Source: Methanobrevibacter millerae (GTDB lineage: Archaea > Methanobacteriota > Methanobacteria > Methanobacteriales > Methanobacteriaceae). Taken from it: a stretch of DNA of 64,000 nucleotides. The position numbers and the translations under genes are program-made. The notes beneath the pieces were generated by a model that was not told the DNA's origin, ran no database searches, and saw only the letters and a program-made list of their open reading frames with translations. This document shows, in pieces, positions 1 to 11,074 of the stretch (position 1 is its first letter; the number at the start of each line of letters is the position of its first letter). The stretch lies in assembly GCF_900103415.1 (NCBI RefSeq), contig NZ_FMXB01000006.1, positions 62,001-126,000 on the forward strand, given 5' to 3'.

Positions 1-766
1 CACAAAAACATCTGAAATCTTCTTCATCCATCTTTTCTTCATGGATATGCGCAATAATTCCCGGAACACGTCCTATGATGAAAACACCCAATCCCAAATC
101 AGGAGTGAAACCCAAATCAGATAATATGGCAGCATTTGCACCATCAACATTCAATTTGATGTTCTTGTTTTGATAAACCAGATCTTCAATGGCCACGGCA
201 AGCTTGATGTGAGGACCGACAAAGCCTTCCCTAATGGCCATCTGTATCAGCTTTTCCGCTCTCGGATCGGTAGTGTGATACCTGTGGCCGAAGCCGGGAA
301 TCTTTTCTTTTTTAGCATAATAGTCATTGTAAACCTCAATGGCCAAACTTGCAATTTGCTTGTTGTCCAAATCATTGTCTTCAGTCAGGAATAATGAATC
401 TATGCTGGACTGGAACAGTTCCATCGTCTGTTCAATTGCACCTGCATGCTTATGGCCGAATGAAAGCAAGGCTCCGGCAACAGCGGAATTCATCGGCGAA
501 CCTGATGATGCAATGATTCTGGCGGTCTGCGTGCTTGGCGGAGTGACACCGTGGTCACAAAAAGAGACAAGGACATGATTGAACATTCTACTTTCCTTAA
601 TGGAAGGCAATCTTCCTTTCAAAAGCAAATAAACCATATCTCCATAACGTATTTTCTCAATTAAATCTTGTTGATTATATCCTCTTGTAGTTAATTTATT
701 GGGTTCAACATTGGAAATTGCTGTTTTTAAAGAGTGTTCATTAACACGAAAATTATTTGCTTGCAT
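1..766 (-). CDS. Citrate synthase-family protein, citryl-CoA lyase-like (3' end outside window)
   Basis: I translated this from the complementary strand. It starts at ATG 766, and about 255 residues are visible before the window edge. Citrate synthase-family landmarks are present: FGHKHAGA (H107), PGFGHRYH (H161), NVDGANAA (D208) and GRVPGIIAHIHEE near residue 235, matching the His/His/Asp catalytic set and the CoA-binding arginine region. The protein is clearly shorter than a full citrate synthase (about 370-430 residues), as is usual for stand-alone citryl-CoA lyase-type proteins. It is the last visible gene of a leftward operon with a fumarase-alpha-type hydratase, a PrpD protein and membrane carriers. 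By inference it cleaves or forms a C-C bond between a CoA thioester and an oxo-acid. The true substrate is unknown. Confidence 0.8.
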   Translation of the reverse strand, partial: MQANNFRVNEHSLKTAISNVEPNKLTTRGYNQQDLIEKIRYGDMVYLLLKGRLPSIKESRMFNHVLVSFCDHGVTPPSTQTARIIASSGSPMNSAVAGALLSFGHKHAGAIEQTMELFQSSIDSLFLTEDNDLDNKQIASLAIEVYNDYYAKKEKIPGFGHRYHTTDPRAEKLIQMAIREGFVGPHIKLAVAIEDLVYQNKNIKLNVDGANAAILSDLGFTPDLGLGVFIIGRVPGIIAHIHEEKMDEEDFRCFC

Positions 767-821
767 GAAATAAAATTTAATTTGATTATTAATAAATGTT
801 ATATATTCTCCCAGGGAAATA

Positions 822-1667
822 TTATAATCTCACGGTAGATTTCCGTGGTTCGACAAAACAGGACGGCCTTACGGAAACTATTCTGACGCCGCTGGCCCTC
901 TGATTTCCTATTTTTATAAATGTGCCTAAAACCGTGGTGTTTCCGCCGAAACCCAATGGCCCTATGTTGGTTTCGTTCAATTTATGGCTTACGTATTTCT
1001 CTTCTTTTGATTGAAGGTCAAGATTGCCGTATACCATTGATTTAAGCATTAATGATGATGCTTCATAATGCGTCCTGCCGATGCCGATTGCGGGAATTGA
1101 CGGGGTGCATCCCAAAAGCTTCAATGATTCCTTAAGCCATTCAATGGCCTCATTGATTACAGTGTCAAATGAACGCTTGTGATAAACCCTGTACGTCTTT
1201 GCCCTTATTTCAGGACCTCCTCCCTGAAGCAAAAAATGAACGTTAAGCGTGTCTGGATTTTGTGAGTTGTCGATTAAAAATGATGCGGGCTTCATTAATC
1301 CTGGATCGTCGAAAAGTCCCTGTGACTGCTCGATTCTTTCAATTGAATTTCCCTTAACGGCCATAGGCCTTGCCGGAAGTCTGTTTAACCCTTGATAAAT
1401 GCCTTCATTAATCTGTGATATTAATTCGGAGGTGATTTCACGGTTTTTGCCCAATTCGATAATTACGTGAGGAATGCCCGTATCGTCGCATAGCGGGAAT
1501 TTACTTTTCTGGCTGACTTCATAGTTTTCAAGAATCTGCTTTAATGCCCAGCGGGCGTTTTCATTAACTTCATTTTCAATGGCTGATTCAAGAGCATGCC
1601 TTTTATCTTGAGACAAATTTGTGCTGGCTTCAATTATAGAATCAGATACTTTATCGATAATATCCAT
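822..1667 (-). CDS. Class I fumarase/tartrate dehydratase alpha-type hydratase
   Basis: The protein resembles the alpha (N-terminal) part of oxygen-sensitive class I fumarases and L-tartrate dehydratase (FumA/TtdA alpha), which hold a [4Fe-4S] cluster and add or remove water on C4 acids. Three candidate cluster cysteines are visible: one in PLCDDTGIP near residue 60, one in LLGCTPSIPAIGIG near 190, and one in RPSCFVEPRK close to the C-terminus. Length (281 aa) fits an alpha subunit. No beta subunit lies next to it in the window, which is unusual because the active site normally needs both. I chose ATG 1667, preceded by GAGTGAT. An in-frame GTG at 1676 overlaps the upstream stop. The substrate is not assignable; fumarate/malate is only one option. 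Confidence 0.82.
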   Translation of the reverse strand: MDIIDKVSDSIIEASTNLSQDKRHALESAIENEVNENARWALKQILENYEVSQKSKFPLCDDTGIPHVIIELGKNREITSELISQINEGIYQGLNRLPARPMAVKGNSIERIEQSQGLFDDPGLMKPASFLIDNSQNPDTLNVHFLLQGGGPEIRAKTYRVYHKRSFDTVINEAIEWLKESLKLLGCTPSIPAIGIGRTHYEASSLMLKSMVYGNLDLQSKEEKYVSHKLNETNIGPLGFGGNTTVLGTFIKIGNQRASGVRIVSVRPSCFVEPRKSTVRL

Positions 1668-1672
1668 TATAA

Positions 1673-2575
1673 TCACTCAGGAACAGCTAAATCGGATGAT
1701 TTTGGTGGTGACATGACTGCATCAGGCAAATATTGGCCTATCATCCTTTTGACCAGTTTGACCTGTTTTACCCTTGCGACTGCCTCTTTTTGAGTGGTGT
1801 CCCAGTTATGGTTGGCCGCAACGGAACCGCCGGTCTTTAAATACACCGGAGCAGCTACCTTAATGAACTGCGGAACCTCATAGTGCCTGATGAATCCTCC
1901 GGTCGATTTCGGGTTTTCCGTGTGCAGGTCAATCGGAATGTCTATTGCGTTTCTTATGGACGCAAGCATCGGTATCTGCAAATCCCTCACAGGATTTAGC
2001 GAATCAAGACCTATGCTTTCAAGAAGCTTTGCCGAAGCGGGATTTCCGTGTCCTGCATGGGCTGACATCTTGAAGTGCAGACTTTCGGGAAGCTCGCCGT
2101 CACTGCGCATCCTATTTAAAACGTACAATAATCCCTCATCATACAACAATATTCCCCGAACGCCAAAAGATGCTGCCCGTTTAACGTCTTCTATCGCATA
2201 AACGAGATTGTCATATCCCCTTAATCGATAGCCTATTCTGATTCCCTCTTTAGTGTGGACGGTAGCTGACGTGTCATAAGTCGCCCTTGGCCCTACAGAT
2301 AAAAATAGCTCGCATTCAGCGCTTTTAGCCAAGTCAACCATTTCCTGGATATCCTCATCGCTTAAAAGCATTATGCCCTTGGTTTGGGTTACGCGATGTA
2401 TTGTCAAATCCTGGTTATCGGCTTCACCTAAAAGAGCCTCCATTGTCTTAGGGGACTGGATTCCGGGAACTTCAAATCTGAACTGCCCGCCATCATTAAA
2501 GGTTTTTTCGGACACGTATCCGGAATCTGTTTCACCGATACCTATTTTATCCAAATACTGTTTAGTCAAATGCAT
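1673..2575 (-). CDS. TIM-barrel protein of organic-acid operon (distantly U32-like)
   Basis: This 300-residue protein has no signal peptide or membrane segment. Its alternating strand/helix pattern is barrel-like, with segments such as KMSAHAGHGNPAS (about residue 190) and PIDLHTENPKSTGGF (about residue 235). It recalls TIM-barrel proteins annotated as U32-peptidase-like, but I do not see the cysteine cluster of true U32 enzymes, so protease or hydroxylase activity should not be assumed. The acidic and histidine residues in those segments could bind a metal or a carboxylate. ATG 2575 follows a GGGGT ribosome site inside the end of the PrpD gene (14-nt overlap), so it is translated as part of the operon. 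Function unknown. Confidence 0.6.
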   Translation of the reverse strand: MHLTKQYLDKIGIGETDSGYVSEKTFNDGGQFRFEVPGIQSPKTMEALLGEADNQDLTIHRVTQTKGIMLLSDEDIQEMVDLAKSAECELFLSVGPRATYDTSATVHTKEGIRIGYRLRGYDNLVYAIEDVKRAASFGVRGILLYDEGLLYVLNRMRSDGELPESLHFKMSAHAGHGNPASAKLLESIGLDSLNPVRDLQIPMLASIRNAIDIPIDLHTENPKSTGGFIRHYEVPQFIKVAAPVYLKTGGSVAANHNWDTTQKEAVARVKQVKLVKRMIGQYLPDAVMSPPKSSDLAVPE

Positions 2576-3980
2576 TTAATACCCCTACAATGTCGCTCAT
2601 TGAATAATTGACAATTTCATCAATAATAACCAGGTTATTAATGTTATAATCAGGATTCAAGCTCTTGAACTTGTCGATAAGTTCGCTTAAATCATAGGGA
2701 TTTTCGAAATCTCCCTTAGGTATGAAAGTGATGTTCTGGAAAATGCCGTTTCTAAACTCATCGTCCAGTTTGATAATAACGTTTGAAGGCCTCTTATTCG
2801 GATACAATTCATTAAGCTTATCGTCTGAAAGTATAATCATCTTATTGACAAGATTCTTAATGCTGTTTACCTTATCGACTGTGGAATAGTTTTCAAAGAG
2901 TCCGTAGTCAACCAGCCTGTTGAGCTTGTCAATGTCCACTTCACCGACGACCAGTGATATTGCCACCGCATAAGGAAGGCTTTGCTTCAATTCTTCAAGG
3001 TTTTTCGGTTTAAAATTATTATGTTCTGCGGCGACATTGTACGTTTTAACGGCCACATTTTCAATATGGTTGTACTCTTCGCCCAGGCTTGTCCTCAGCT
3101 TTAATGCAGTATCTATGGAAGAGTGCAAATGCCTGCAGAAAGGATACTTTTTAAAGTAGATGTCCCTGACCCTGACCGTGCCGACGCTTTCAAGAACTGA
3201 TTCGAATGAAAAGTCATCACTTTCAAATTCCTCACTGTCAAACACCATCGTTTTTAAAAATCCTTCAGAACCTTCAATTATGGTTTCGGCGCCTGTAAAT
3301 CCGTTTCTTGCAAGAAATGCGGAAAGCAATCCATTGTAATTGGCCTTTCCCACATGAAGAACCTTTCCCATGCTTCCCCCATGATCGGATTCTAGAAGGC
3401 CTGCTGCCTGAGTTCCGCACAGTCCCAAAGCGTTCAATGTCTGGGATTCATCAAGCTTGAGGAGTTTGGATGCAACGGCTCCGGAAACGAAAGTTCCAAT
3501 TGTTCCTGTTGTGTGAAAACCCCTGTTCCTGTGTCTTGGATTGACCAGCTTGCCCAAAAGGATTCCCACTTCATATCCTACAATGACCGCTTCAAAAAAG
3601 TCTTTTCCGCTTAATCCATAGGCTTCTGATATTGCAAGAGCCGTAGGAAATATTACGGCACCCAAATGAGCCTGAGCCTGTCGGTGACCATCATCCAGTT
3701 CCAATACGTGTGCAGAAATTCCATTCAGGAATGCGGCATCCAGTATGTTGGTTTTTACGTTAGGCTTTCCGATGATGGATGCGTCAAGGCCCAAATCCTT
3801 GCTTGTGCCAAATACCTCTTCAATCGTATTGAAGGCTATTAATGAAGAGTTTTCATTTGATCCCCTTATCGTGACACCAAGAAAATCAAGAAAAGCTGCC
3901 TTTATAGTGTTGACAGTCTCAACAGTAGCCTGTTCATATCGATAATTTGAAATAAATTTAGAAATATCCTGCAAAAACAT
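2562..3980 (-). CDS. MmgE/PrpD family protein (2-methylcitrate dehydratase-like)
   Basis: The 472-residue sequence has the MmgE/PrpD layout: a helical domain beginning SKFISNYRYEQ and containing FLDFLGVTIRG, then ELDDGHRQAQAHLG, GYEVGILLGKLVNP, HTTGTIGTF and LGLCGTQAAGLLES, followed by a C-terminal lid domain with FKKYPFCRHLHSS. Family members include 2-methylcitrate dehydratase, cis-aconitate decarboxylase and iminodisuccinate epimerase, so the family acts on di- and tricarboxylates but the reaction varies. It is preceded by two membrane protein genes on the same strand and overlaps the next gene. This suggests it handles the acid those proteins import. Length is normal. Confidence 0.88.
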   Translation of the reverse strand: MFLQDISKFISNYRYEQATVETVNTIKAAFLDFLGVTIRGSNENSSLIAFNTIEEVFGTSKDLGLDASIIGKPNVKTNILDAAFLNGISAHVLELDDGHRQAQAHLGAVIFPTALAISEAYGLSGKDFFEAVIVGYEVGILLGKLVNPRHRNRGFHTTGTIGTFVSGAVASKLLKLDESQTLNALGLCGTQAAGLLESDHGGSMGKVLHVGKANYNGLLSAFLARNGFTGAETIIEGSEGFLKTMVFDSEEFESDDFSFESVLESVGTVRVRDIYFKKYPFCRHLHSSIDTALKLRTSLGEEYNHIENVAVKTYNVAAEHNNFKPKNLEELKQSLPYAVAISLVVGEVDIDKLNRLVDYGLFENYSTVDKVNSIKNLVNKMIILSDDKLNELYPNKRPSNVIIKLDDEFRNGIFQNITFIPKGDFENPYDLSELIDKFKSLNPDYNINNLVIIDEIVNYSMSDIVGVLNAFD

Positions 3981-4047
3981 AACAATCTCAACATTATTTA
4001 TGTAAAATTACTAATAAATAGTTAACTTAAAAAAATGAAAACGGAAG

Positions 4048-4539
4048 TTAAACCGCCGGAACGCCTGTTGCGACAAGCACAATATGAGCTACGATTGCCG
4101 CTCCATAATATGTCGCTGCAATAACAAGCACCGTAATGATAATGGCTCTCCAGCCCAATGCCTTAAATTCATCCCAGCTTTTACCCATACCAATACCGAC
4201 ATAAGCCAGAAATACCGTAACGATGGATAAAAGTTCAACCTGTGAAACGTAGTGAAGAACAAAATCGGATGTCGGCATTCCAGGAAATGCTAAAACAATT
4301 CCGATAATGCTTATATAAAGAATCGAGGATATGTTAAACGGAAGTTCCCTTTCCAGCCAAACGCCGATAAGAGTAATTAAAGACAAAATGCCCATACCGA
4401 CCAGTGAACCGGCAATCGGGTGATGATAACCCAGATAATTTCCTATGACGGTGATAACTGAAAATATGATTAAAAGTATAATCCAGTTGATAATACCGTG
4501 AACAGAAACAGCTTCAGACCCGTCGATGAAATCAGGCAT
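4048..4539 (-). CDS. Small polytopic membrane protein, partner of DUF3100 protein
   Basis: This 163-residue protein has about five hydrophobic segments: IINWIILLIIFSVITVIGN, the GSLVGMGILSLITLIGVW region, ILYISIIGIVLAF, a segment near VELLSIVTVFLAYVGIG, and a C-terminal one at IIITVLVIAATYYGA. The start ATG 4539 directly abuts the stop of the DUF3100 gene and has a GGGGGATG-type ribosome site, so the two proteins are probably made together and may form one carrier. The glycine-rich membrane segments resemble those of small organic-acid carriers, but I cannot assign a family firmly. Confidence 0.65.
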   Translation of the reverse strand: MPDFIDGSEAVSVHGIINWIILLIIFSVITVIGNYLGYHHPIAGSLVGMGILSLITLIGVWLERELPFNISSILYISIIGIVLAFPGMPTSDFVLHYVSQVELLSIVTVFLAYVGIGMGKSWDEFKALGWRAIIITVLVIAATYYGAAIVAHIVLVATGVPAV

Positions 4540-5427
4540 TTATTCATCCCCCTTATTCTTTTGAGCAATGGAATCTCTTCCAATCTTTGGCTCAAGCCAA
4601 TAATATATCTTTTGAGTCAACGGGAGGGCGACAAAAATCACTATGTAAATACCGACACAGAATGAAAGCAGGTTACTGAATCCTGCAAATGCTTCAATGC
4701 TTGATTCCATTCCAGGAAACGCCGCTAAAGTCGGTCCGATAGCTGCAGCATTCATACTTGCACTTCCAACACCGCTTGCCATTGCAAATGCGTACGGATG
4801 CAGAGGCAGGAATGACAATGAGAATGTTACAAGGAAACTTATGAAAATAGTACCTATAACAGTACCGATAATGAATATTGCAAATACTCCTCTTGATTCC
4901 GGAGAATCGAAACCGTATTTGTCTACAACTACTGCCACGTTCGGTTCACGACCAATGGAATTTGTCATACCAATAGCTTCTTCCTTAAATCCTAAAAGCA
5001 ATGCTATAGGAAGCACCAGGATGGTTGCCAAATGCCCCAATTCCTGCAATATCAATGCCGGACCCATTTCAAATATCAGATGTATTGACTGGCCACTTGA
5101 AATAGCCAGTTTTGCAATCAAAACACCGATGAAAAGCATCATGGCTCCTTCGGCAATACGGGCCTGCTTTCTTTGAATCCATTTGATAGGCTTTAACAAA
5201 TAAAATGCCAATCCTAAAATAATCGTGTAAATCAAAGGCATTATGGTTATGGCAACGTCTTTGGTTATCGGGATAGTAATGGTTCCAATTAATTCGGCTA
5301 TGACTACCAATACAAGTACAGTCAAATGTAACCTGTAATCTCTCCAAGGATTCTTCCTTAAAATCCTTTTATCAGTTTTTTCACGATAAATGTGCTCAAC
5401 ATGACCATCATTACCCTTATTTGGAAT
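4540..5427 (-). CDS. DUF3100-type membrane protein, putative organic-acid carrier (non-AUG start)
   Basis: The protein is polytopic, with about eight or nine hydrophobic segments, a charged loop KPIKWIQRKQARIAEG, and motifs NSIGREPNVAVVVDKYG and SGVGSASMNAAAIGPT. It matches my recollection of DUF3100 proteins. The first canonical codon in frame is TTG 5325, but coding clearly continues upstream (NPWRDYRLHLTVLV, with no stop back to 5446). There is no ATG, GTG or TTG in that stretch. ATT 5427 lies 9 nt after GGGGAG and is my proposed start, giving 295 aa. If TTG 5325 is used the protein is 261 aa and its start lacks a well-placed ribosome site. It is the first gene of the leftward operon. Transport is inferred from topology and neighbours. 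Confidence 0.75.
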   Translation of the reverse strand: MPNKGNDGHVEHIYREKTDKRILRKNPWRDYRLHLTVLVLVVIAELIGTITIPITKDVAITIMPLIYTIILGLAFYLLKPIKWIQRKQARIAEGAMMLFIGVLIAKLAISSGQSIHLIFEMGPALILQELGHLATILVLPIALLLGFKEEAIGMTNSIGREPNVAVVVDKYGFDSPESRGVFAIFIIGTVIGTIFISFLVTFSLSFLPLHPYAFAMASGVGSASMNAAAIGPTLAAFPGMESSIEAFAGFSNLLSFCVGIYIVIFVALPLTQKIYYWLEPKIGRDSIAQKNKGDE

Positions 5428-6903: not shown

Positions 6904-7848
6904 GTGGTTGTAATTGACATGTTGACTAGAAACAGAATGCTTCAGGAAATTGAAAAATTGCTGATATCAGAGGGTTATAAGACTTCTGACATTTATGATC
7001 AGGGCTCTTTTGATATTGTAGCCCGTAAAAACCTATTGATTTTGCTTTTAAAAACTTTCATTAATATTGACAGCGTTAATGAGAATAATGCCCGTGAAAT
7101 GAAGCAGCTGGCCAACATATTTTTAGCATCCCCCATAATAATCGGGGCAAAGTCCAGAAACGGCCTTCTGGAGGAAGGAGTGATTTACGAGAGGTATGAC
7201 ATTCCAACAATCGGCTTTGAAACCCTGAAAAACATGATAGTCTATAACGAATATCCCGAAATACTGGCCGACAGGGGAGGATATTTCGTTAAAATTGACG
7301 GAAATGTCATCAAACAGTACAGGGAAGACTATTCACTTTCACTTAAGGATCTTGCTGATTTGGCTCATGTTTCAAGGGCGACAATGTATAAATATGAAAA
7401 CGAGATTGTCCGGGCCAATGCCGAAACCGCAATGATTCTCGAAGAGATTTTAAATACTAAAGTTACATTGGACATCGACATACTGAAATACAACCAGGAA
7501 GAGCATATTCAGTATCATGCTACCGGAGAAGGAGCAGAAGATTTATCCAAGCTCGGATACGGAGTAATATCCACAAGCAAAAGTCCTTTCGATGCCGTTG
7601 CAAAGGATGACAGTTCATCATTAATAGCCAACGTTGAAAAGAACAGAAGCCATAAGACATTAAAGAGAATGGCAATACCCCTTAAGGATTTGTCCATGAT
7701 TACATCCTCAGAACCCGTGTTCATCATCAACAACGACCAGATTAAAGAATCCCTCGGAACGATTCCCGTAATCAAATCATGGGAACTGAAGGAATTTGAA
7801 CGCTCACAAGAATTATTGAAACTGATTAGAGAAAGAAAAGAAAACTAG
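6904..7848 (+). CDS. Archaeal HTH-type (XRE-like) transcriptional regulator
   Basis: The protein is 314 aa. Its N-terminal 110 residues resemble a nuclease-like or ligand-binding fold (GSFDIVARKNLLILLLK). A central helix-turn-helix follows near residues 135-190 (QYREDYSLSLKDLADLAHVS, then TMYKYENE). The C-terminal half is archaeal-specific and ends in a charged helix. This layout matches the conserved euryarchaeal putative HTH-type regulatory proteins (MJ0164-like). The start may be GTG 6904 or ATG 6919; neither has a strong ribosome site. It is divergent from tiaS and followed after 7 nt by a cysteine-rich protein gene, so the two are probably cotranscribed. Its targets are unknown. Confidence 0.85.
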   Translation: MVVIDMLTRNRMLQEIEKLLISEGYKTSDIYDQGSFDIVARKNLLILLLKTFINIDSVNENNAREMKQLANIFLASPIIIGAKSRNGLLEEGVIYERYDIPTIGFETLKNMIVYNEYPEILADRGGYFVKIDGNVIKQYREDYSLSLKDLADLAHVSRATMYKYENEIVRANAETAMILEEILNTKVTLDIDILKYNQEEHIQYHATGEGAEDLSKLGYGVISTSKSPFDAVAKDDSSSLIANVEKNRSHKTLKRMAIPLKDLSMITSSEPVFIINNDQIKESLGTIPVIKSWELKEFERSQELLKLIRERKEN

Positions 7849-7855
7849 TGATAAT

Positions 7856-8242
7856 ATGGAAGATTTAAGAATTCCCGATATGGAAAATTACCCAATCAAG
7901 TGGGTCTGTAATTTTAGAGGTCAAAAAGCAATCGGAATATGTGGATATTCACAAAAAATAGCTATGTTTGCATCCGACGAACGTGTTTCAAAAATCCTGG
8001 AAGACATTGTAATCGGAACACATGAGGATTTGGAAGGCTACGGATGTGAAGAAAAGGACAGATGCTGCAATTTCGACTGCAAGTTCTGTGAAATTACTCC
8101 AAGACAATATTTGCAGATTACCGGCAAAAAGCCGTCCAATAAAAATGTAAAGGAATTAAATGAAGGACTGGAAAGCCTTAACGCCGAATTTGAAATGATG
8201 AATATCGTTCCTTTCGAGGAATATGAAATAATTAAATTCTAA
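7856..8242 (+). CDS. Conserved hypothetical protein with cysteine cluster
   Basis: This 128-residue soluble protein has a cysteine group between residues 61 and 78: GYGCEEKDRCCNFDCKFCEI. The spacing could hold a metal or an Fe-S cluster. No other motif is recognised. ATG 7856 follows TAGTGAT, with the HTH regulator gene ending 7 nt upstream, so it is probably in the same transcript. It converges with, and overlaps by 4 nt, the next gene on the opposite strand. No function is proposed. Confidence 0.75.
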   Translation: MEDLRIPDMENYPIKWVCNFRGQKAIGICGYSQKIAMFASDERVSKILEDIVIGTHEDLEGYGCEEKDRCCNFDCKFCEITPRQYLQITGKKPSNKNVKELNEGLESLNAEFEMMNIVPFEEYEIIKF

Positions 8243-9050: not shown

Positions 9051-9398
9051 CTATTCTCTTTCAACAACAACCGCAGTGCCGTAGACTAAAATCTCCTGCA
9101 TTACATCAGAGATTTCATTTGAATCAAACCTGATGGCAATAATGCCGTTAGCACCCAATTCTTTTGCATGATCGATTGCTCTTGCCATTGCTTCTTCCCT
9201 TGATTCTTCCATCATTGTGACATATTGAGTGATTTCACCGCCGAAAAGAGATTTTATGCCCGCACCGATTTGTCCACCGGCACCTCTGCTTCTTACGGTT
9301 AAACCCCATATGAATCCTTTTGTTTCGACAGTTCTGAATCCAGGAATTTCATTTGCACTTGATATTGGAAATTCTTCTACTGAAACCATAATTTTCAC
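9051..9398 (-). CDS. UPF0145 (YbjQ/DUF74) family protein
   Basis: This 115-residue protein matches the YbjQ/UPF0145 family of small beta/alpha proteins that form pentamers and are often called heavy-metal-binding, though their role is unknown. Diagnostic segments are VETKGFIWGLTVRSRGAGG, the FGGEITQYVTMMEESREEA region, and GANGIIAIRFDSNEI. The ATG at 9398 is preceded by AAAAGGTG on the coding strand. It is followed closely by the aldo/keto-like gene and is divergent from serA across about 100 nt of AT-rich promoter DNA. Confidence 0.92.
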   Translation of the reverse strand: MKIMVSVEEFPISSANEIPGFRTVETKGFIWGLTVRSRGAGGQIGAGIKSLFGGEITQYVTMMEESREEAMARAIDHAKELGANGIIAIRFDSNEISDVMQEILVYGTAVVVERE

Positions 9399-9499
9399 CT
9401 TTTTTATATGTTATAATTATAGTTTTAAATACAAGGAACTATATATATTTAATTAATATTTATGATAGATATTTTAAAAATTAAAGATATGGTGAAATA

Positions 9500-11074
9500 A
9501 TGAAAGTACTCGTTGCAGATGCAATAAATGAGAAAGGAATAGAAAATTTAAAGGAAGTAGCTGAAGTTACTGTCGATACCAGCATTACTCCCGAAGAATT
9601 GATTAATACAATCCATGAATATCATGGAATTATCGTGAGAAGCAGGACAAAAGTAACTAAAGAAGTTATTGATAAAGCGGACAATTTAAAAATAATCGCA
9701 AGAGCAGGCGTCGGTGTAGACAACATCGATTTGGATGCCGCTACCGAAAAGGGAATCATGGTCGTCAATTCACCTGAATCAACTTCCATTACCGTAGCGG
9801 AACACACCATGGGATTATTATTAAGCATGGCGCGTAAATTGTCAATTGCCGATAAATCCGTAAAGGAAGGAAACTGGGAAAAGAAAAAATTCATGGGTGT
9901 TGAACTCAGAAACAAGACTCTCGGTGTAATCGGAATGGGTAGAATCGGTTCCCAGGTAGTCAACAGATGCAAATCATTTGAAATGGATGCCGTAGCATAC
10001 GATCCGTACCTTCCGGAAGAAGTGGCTACCCAAATGGGAGTTGAACTAACCGATTTAGAAACTGTTCTCAAAAAGGCAGACTTCATCACAATCCACGTTC
10101 CGTTAACTCCAGAAACCAAACATTTAATCTCATATGATGAATTTGAAACCATGAAAGATACAGTATTCATTACAAACTGTGCCCGTGGTGGAATCATTGA
10201 TGAAGAAGCATTATATGACGCTTTGAAAAACGACAAAATCGGCGGAGCCGCATTGGACGTATATGAAGAAGAGCCACCTGCAAAAGATTCAAAATTATTC
10301 GAACTTGACAATATCGTATTAACTCCACACATTGCAGCTTCAACCAAAGAAGCACAAAGGGATGCTGCAATTATCGTGGCGGATGAAATCATTGATTTAT
10401 TCAAAGGCGGAACACCTAAAAACGTTTTAAACATGCCAAGAATCGACAACAATACTTATCAGGAATTGTCCCCGTACTTTGAAATCTGTGAAAAATTAGG
10501 AAGTTTCATTTCACAGGCCGTAAACGGCAAAATCAAAGATTTGGAAATCGTTTACAGCGGTGAACTTGCAAAAATCGACAATCTTGAAATATTGACAAGA
10601 ACCGTTATTCAGGGTGCCGTCAATCCGTTCTTAAGCTCACCTGTAAATGCAGTTAATGCCGCACTTGTCGCTAAAGACCGTGGAATCAACATAACCGAAG
10701 GAAGAAAAACCAACGCCAAAGGTTATGAGTCATTAATCAGAGTAAAAGCAAAAAGCAATGATGACGAGTTCTCCGCTGAAGGAACAACCCTCCACGAAGC
10801 AAGAATATTAAAAGTTAACGACTATTGGGTAGACGTCATTCCTGAAGGACACATGTTCATTGCAAAATATGAAGACGTTCCGGGCAGTATCGGTGCAATC
10901 GGCACCAAACTCGGTGAATACGGCGTTAACATCGGAATCATGCAAGTCGGAAGGGATGAAAAAGGTGGAAGAGCTATCATGATTTTAACCTTGGACAAAG
11001 AAATCCCAACTGATGTAATCAAAGAAATCCAAGCTTTAAACAATGTCTACGAAGCTATCGGATTAGAATTATAA
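9500..11074 (+). CDS. serA: D-3-phosphoglycerate dehydrogenase
   Basis: SerA oxidises 3-phosphoglycerate to 3-phosphohydroxypyruvate with NAD, the first step of serine synthesis. It is the long type (524 aa). It has a substrate-binding/NAD core ([38 protein letters not shown], and TPHIAAST with the catalytic histidine), an intervening domain (about 315-450) and a C-terminal ACT domain ([19 protein letters not shown]) that usually gives serine feedback. The start ATG has GGTGA 5 nt upstream, and a TATA-like run (actatatatat) lies further upstream. It is monocistronic, with a clear hairpin/T-run terminator. Confidence 0.97.

Follow-up and report, generated by a model that had tools for sequence, protein, structure and literature searches.

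What does the six-gene locus at the left end of this stretch do for its methanogen? The window, by which we mean the whole stretch of 64,000 nucleotides that was analysed, comprises bases 62001–126000 of contig 6; the genome is of the Methanobrevibacter type. All six genes of the locus lie on the minus strand, at window positions 2–5412. A sequence-only reading had described six same-strand genes for two membrane proteins, an MmgE/PrpD protein, a TIM-barrel protein, a fumarase alpha subunit and a citrate synthase-like enzyme, and both the coordinates and the profile matches agree with it. Our analysis indicates that four of these genes, encoding PrpD, TIM, FumA and CitL, are a conserved core, which together with an unlinked second fumarase beta subunit (FumB2) very probably forms one functional unit of Methanobacteria. 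That the product of this unit is 1,3,4,6-hexanetetracarboxylic acid (HTCA) or its hydroxy form, the terminal residue of methanofurans a and c, is a proposal drawn from protein families and gene neighbourhoods that we consider evenly balanced. The five genes are the following:

2..766, minus strand: CitL, a citrate-synthase-fold, citryl-CoA-lyase-type enzyme (NF004866); 255 of its 265 codons lie inside the window and its 3' end lies to the left of it, at contig position C6:61969; the whole gene spans L002:11969-12766
822..1676, minus strand: FumA, a divergent class I fumarase-type alpha subunit (PF05681, 185 bits)
1673..2575, minus strand: TIM, an uncharacterised 300-aa TIM-barrel enzyme (no Pfam, NCBIfam or PDB sequence match; AlphaFold model)
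2562..3980, minus strand: PrpD, an MmgE/PrpD-family enzyme (PF03972, 223 bits, and PF19305)
Contig C3:162593-163084 of the window's own genome, unlinked to the operon: FumB2, a second, divergent fumarase beta subunit

The order PrpD-TIM-FumA-CitL on a single strand recurs at 83 of the 94 archaeal TIM loci, which is far beyond chance; a few of these loci overlap each other, and contig ends truncate some of the other 11. The pathway idea of the sequence-only reading depended on homologs being clustered in other genomes, and they are. The PrpD and TIM genes overlap by 14 bp and the TIM and FumA genes by 4 bp, as would be expected if their translation were coupled, and 55 bp separate FumA from CitL. 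In termite-gut methanogens (loci L086, L089, L093, L099 and L107), the operon is dispersed: TIM adjoins a nadC-type gene and PrpD lies on another contig.

The earlier description of FumA as a lone alpha subunit holds for the locus itself, where neither a fumarase beta nor a CoA ligase or regulator lies in the 12 kb read to its left, but fails at the level of the genome. Every Methanobacteria genome carries a housekeeping fumarase alpha besides the operon FumA, and nearly every one checked carries two beta genes, a normal one scoring ~150 bits and the divergent FumB2 at ~80 bits, the exceptions being a few draft assemblies. FumB2 is 47–56% identical to the beta subunits of related bacterial clusters; identity between the two beta classes is ~31–38%. 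Phylogenetic trees place FumB2 with the bacterial-cluster betas, apart from the housekeeping betas (support 100/100), and the operon alphas with the bacterial-cluster alphas, apart from the housekeeping alphas (100/100, with a warning from the program that long branches meet there). FumB2 is inherited and lost together with the operon and is the predicted matching beta subunit of FumA.

TIM was found in 129 of the 152 genomes of the phylum, which is 129 of the 132 Methanobacteria outside Methanosphaera, and in none of 27 archaea sampled outside the class; a scan of viral contigs returned no relatives. Three of the 23 genomes without TIM are assemblies 67–72% complete. The other 20 are every member of one genus, which we take to be Methanosphaera, and a complete genome among them is presumably that of M. 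stadtmanae. PrpD, FumB2 and TIM are each absent from all 20 Methanosphaera genomes, mfnB is present in all 20, and the housekeeping beta is the only fumarase beta of the genus. The genes that border the operon in other genomes, tiaS and atpH, are separated in M. stadtmanae by only 430 bp, with no gene in the gap; in that species mfnA still follows the phosphoenolpyruvate (PEP) synthase gene ppsA, with FumB2 gone, and korAB (2-oxoglutarate:ferredoxin oxidoreductase) is kept. That genes at separate places disappeared together is good evidence for a shared function of FumB2 and the operon. The five proteins include no Mfn enzyme, and because Methanosphaera lost them yet keeps MfnB (and, in M. stadtmanae, MfnA), they would act outside the core methanofuran pathway (MfnA-F). 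The genus can also no longer interconvert methyl groups and CO2, and in M. stadtmanae methanol is neither converted to CO2 nor made from it (PMC7374477). Methanofuran functions in that branch of metabolism.

The neighbours of FumB2 point towards methanofuran. At 10 of the 20 FumB2 loci read, the gene comes directly after mfnA, which encodes the tyrosine decarboxylase of methanofuran biosynthesis and itself follows the PEP synthase gene. These loci belong to Methanothermus, one further family (f3), the Methanothermobacter family, M. ruminantium and two further genera. MfnA was verified at four of them with TIGR03812 (551–572 bits, cut-off 299), and in Methanothermus and an f3 genome mfnA and FumB2 overlap by 4 bp. 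At 8 of the 20 loci FumB2 stands beside korAB; in the window's own genome it stands beside neither, and the operon itself adjoins no mfn gene. With several genera and three other families behind it, mfnA is the ancestral-looking neighbour. Two relatives' genomes we take to be those of M. thermautotrophicus and M. smithii. The former has mfnA beside FumB2 in the same neighbourhood as its relatives, which we count as support for the name, MfnA being MTH1116 (PMC3087415). In this same genome (L168, ~7507-7999 and 9200-9500), the matches to FumB2 and to the end of ppsA are spread over more than one reading frame, reflecting either old sequencing errors or frameshifts.

Methanofuran is the first CO2 acceptor in methanogenesis. 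The terminal acid of the Methanobacterium-type methanofuran is HTCA (work of Leigh, Wolfe and White), M. smithii carries the hydroxy form, and other methanogens have polyglutamate tails; free hexanetetracarboxylate is a solute of M. thermautotrophicus. A literature search on hexanetetracarboxylate returned nothing useful. About seven methanofuran proteins were unaccounted for in 2011 (PMC3087415), and the enzymes for the linkers or for the terminal residues borne by methanofurans a and c were unidentified as of 2021 (PMC8141765). The core occurs throughout Methanobacteria except Methanosphaera and is absent from the 27 other archaea; published methanofuran tail structures cover a few species only. 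The distribution of the unit follows the CO2-reducing Methanobacteria, and, taken with the mfnA linkage and the joint loss in Methanosphaera, this makes biosynthesis the best explanation, fitting better than uptake or catabolism. The sequence-only reading had named synthesis as the reverse alternative to its uptake proposal, and it is this alternative that near-universal conservation and the mfnA linkage favour.

What chemistry might such a unit perform? CitL scores 397 bits against NF004866 (citryl-CoA lyase, PRK06224 group; cut-off 245) and falls far under the cut-offs of full-length citrate and methylcitrate synthase models (TIGR01800, 110 against 421). Its closest solved structure is 6hxp, the citryl-CoA lyase (Ccl) of the reductive tricarboxylic acid cycle, a full-length match at 261 bits. 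The catalytic motifs HAGAI, GFGHRYH and NVDG, which by motif match the His/His/Asp of citrate synthase, are kept across the class. However, CitL differs from Ccl in having no adjoining citryl-CoA synthetase and in being embedded with PrpD, TIM and FumA. The solved structures nearest to PrpD are the B. subtilis 'IRG1', IDS-epimerase and cis-aconitate decarboxylase (194–201 bits), compared with 57 bits for 2-methylcitrate dehydratase; against the equivalog of the latter, TIGR02330, it reaches 32 bits with a cut-off of 458. With IDS-epimerase and cis-aconitate decarboxylase closer to it than 2-methylcitrate dehydratase, PrpD could catalyse a dehydration, a decarboxylation or an epimerisation.

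FumA and FumB2 resemble class I fumarase/tartrate dehydratase in pairing an alpha with a second beta gene and in three Cys ligand positions: Cys 63, 190 and 273 are invariant in nine FumA sequences, at the positions expected for 4Fe-4S ligands. They differ in lying on a deep branch separate from the housekeeping enzyme of the same genomes and, in archaea, in having alpha and beta unlinked, and FumA stays below the cut-off for fumarate hydratase proper (PRK06246, 126 against 276 bits). TIM has no Pfam or NCBIfam match and so no score for the PEP mutase/isocitrate lyase superfamily. Its AlphaFold model is confident (pLDDT 88.5), with five models in agreement and alternating strands and helices. 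The top Foldseek matches are class II aldolases, 2-methylisocitrate lyase and the pyruvate carboxylase CT domain; these are generic aldolase- and lyase-like barrels with TM-scores of only ~0.5. Many Arg, two Lys and acidic residues are kept in 24 of 24 TIM sequences and appear suited to a polyanionic substrate.

As a whole, the operon most resembles the methylcitrate cycle (PrpC-PrpD-AcnD/AcnB-PrpB), which likewise combines a citrate-synthase-fold enzyme, an MmgE/PrpD protein, an Fe-S hydro-lyase and a TIM barrel; the TIM model has PrpB among the barrels that it resembles. In contrast to that cycle, CitL is of the citryl-CoA-lyase type rather than a 2-methylcitrate synthase, PrpD finds its closer matches in IDS-epimerase and cis-aconitate decarboxylase, the hydro-lyase is of the fumarase type, and TIM has no sequence match to PrpB. 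The overall logic may be that of the methylcitrate cycle, with three of the four positions occupied by enzymes from unrelated or different families. In the route that we propose, with every step inferred from protein families, CitL would form or cleave the C-C bond that links a CoA ester to a 2-oxoacid at its keto carbon (probably C2 of 2-oxoglutarate). PrpD would then take water from the resulting citrate-like acid, or else decarboxylate or epimerise it; FumA with FumB2 would act as a 4Fe-4S hydro-lyase adding or removing water; and TIM, as an aldolase/lyase-type enzyme, would contribute an aldol-type step. The product would be hydroxy-HTCA, which a further reduction would turn into HTCA.

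A genome scan recovered 374 TIM relatives, many of them in gut Clostridia and Fibrobacter at 63–66% identity; these copies rule out a purely archaeal cofactor unit. In 12 bacterial loci the order is PrpD-(aldo/keto reductase)-(thiamine pyrophosphate (TPP) decarboxylase)-TIM-(PF15617 C-C lyase)-FumB-FumA, and in a few it is 2-hydroxyacid dehydrogenase-PrpD-TIM-ATP-grasp-lyase-FumB-FumA. Most bacterial modules lie in polysaccharide or capsule loci with glycosyltransferase, flippase, Wzz-like, DegT and ATP-grasp genes. In one more distant locus, the citrate lyase CitDEF takes the place of that C-C lyase. Because three different citrate-lyase-type systems fill this position, the C-C lyase step is probably essential and citrate-like. 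In two still more distant loci, TIM is accompanied by fumarase, malic enzyme, PrpD and transporter genes that are, judging by their sequence, TctC-like/TAXI-type (tricarboxylate-type), and these loci look catabolic. At L156:8908-9846, a TIM homolog of 34–36% identity stands with PanB, FolD and formate-tetrahydrofolate-ligase-type genes and a TRAP transporter, a sign that the TIM family may be wider and use C1 or aldol chemistry. As to the direction of transfer, the alpha tree nests the bacterial copies within the archaea, but for TIM a topology that keeps the archaea as a clade of their own is not rejected (p-AU 0.33). The complete picture, a five-gene HTCA route with a new TIM-barrel enzyme plus a gut Clostridia/Fibrobacter module that relies on another C-C lyase and supplies surface polysaccharides with a related acid, is offered tentatively and falls somewhat short of an even chance.

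The two remaining genes of the locus bear on the original suggestion that an external di- or tricarboxylate is taken up and then catabolised or assimilated:

4048..4539, minus strand: TM163, a 163-aa membrane protein (no Pfam or other family match); accessory, not core
4540..5412, minus strand: DUF3100 membrane protein (PF11299, 281 bits; start codon and 5' end uncertain); accessory, not core

In Methanobrevibacter this pair, the would-be importer, sits directly upstream of the enzymes on the same strand (0 bp between DUF3100 and TM163, 67 bp between TM163 and PrpD), and distant TIM relatives occur in catabolic-looking operons with transporters, a genuine fumarase and malic enzyme, or in one case CitDEF. 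Among 100 relatives searched, however, DUF3100 is confined to the window's own genus; the core occurs without it in Methanothermus, Methanothermobacter and relatives; and M. stadtmanae has two DUF3100 genes flanking a TM163 homolog (47% identity; coordinates 793157-795395) with the core enzymes gone. Because the pair and the core enzymes are thus separable, M. stadtmanae having the transporter alone, the transporter is a neighbour rather than part of the core. What stands of the sequence-only reading is polycarboxylic-acid chemistry in an unnamed operon; uptake plus conversion does not, the transporter being lineage-specific. A catabolic trait would moreover not usually be found in almost all members of an autotrophic class, and no steps from fumarase to pyruvate lie beside the core. 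These archaea are unlikely to take up and break down an external acid, and the uptake explanation as a whole is improbable. In Methanosphaera, the DUF3100/TM163 pair forms a stand-alone, uncharacterised transport-like system; a literature search on DUF3100 gave nothing useful. To the left of CitL, a nitroreductase gene follows after 1 bp; beyond it come a gene for a small membrane protein and then the A-ATPase operon. The nitroreductase is not in the Methanothermobacter or Methanothermus neighbourhoods and, like the DUF3100/TM163 pair, is a local neighbour outside the core.

The bacterial loci suggest another explanation, in which TIM is a new PEP mutase feeding a neighbouring phosphonopyruvate decarboxylase in phosphonate-type metabolism. 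The TPP decarboxylase adjoining TIM in the 12 loci supports this (the one scored reached 425 bits against TIGR03297, cut-off 312), as does the lack of a PEP mutase above cut-off in most of those genomes (PF13714 search) and the presence of carboxyvinyl-carboxyphosphonate phosphorylmutase among the many Foldseek matches. Yet that fold match is generic (TM ~0.5), the metagenome-assembled genomes may be incomplete, the decarboxylase is missing from the bacterial clusters that we call type B and from all archaeal clusters, and simple phosphonate synthesis would give no role to partners such as fumarase, PrpD and a citrate lyase. We consider this explanation highly improbable; neither the PF13714 search of bacterial genomes nor the fold search supports a PEP-mutase role for TIM. 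The loci concerned (L091, L092, L094, L102-L104, L106, L108-L111 and L114) are gut Clostridia capsule loci with a phosphonopyruvate-decarboxylase-type enzyme beside TIM, whose true substrate may be another 3-substituted pyruvate; literature joining phosphonopyruvate decarboxylase with PrpD yielded nothing useful. The window's own genome has a PEP mutase-type match elsewhere (PF13714, 200 bits, in a 440-aa frame; contig C13:62512-63285, L115), and phosphonate metabolism is likely there.

A stronger competitor, possible though clearly the less probable account, is that the unit makes some other polycarboxylic acid for autotrophic, CO2-reducing Methanobacteria, unrelated to methanofuran: a compatible solute, a wall or glycan decoration, or part of a 2-oxoglutarate side route. 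FumB2 adjoins korAB in many Methanobrevibacter, and the bacterial copies, sitting among glycan genes, seem to supply a glycan acid; against this, the ancestral-looking neighbour of FumB2 is mfnA, and Methanosphaera keeps korAB. Methanosphaera also keeps pseudomurein. Several of the same observations weigh against HTCA as the product. Autotrophy has been lost in Methanosphaera too (PMC7374477), so the co-loss could reflect another pathway, and adjacency to mfnA and korAB could be passive. Since Methanosphaera keeps mfnA and mfnB, a methanofuran without an HTCA tail must be assumed there, and the core contains no reductase. The PrpD/TIM/FumAB module is also present, in capsule loci and catabolic-looking operons, in bacteria without known methanofuran; its chemistry is therefore not specific to HTCA, and it is mainly because the bacterial copies show chemistry beyond methanofuran that we go no further than an even chance for this product.

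HTCA tail biosynthesis, if correct, would supply a directly testable five-gene candidate set for the methanofuran tail, found in almost all Methanobacteria of the rumen and the human gut. It also proposes a function for the unnamed TIM enzyme family, of which the genome collection contains 374 relatives, and the unit may be usable as a target for acting specifically on CO2-reducing gut methanogens.

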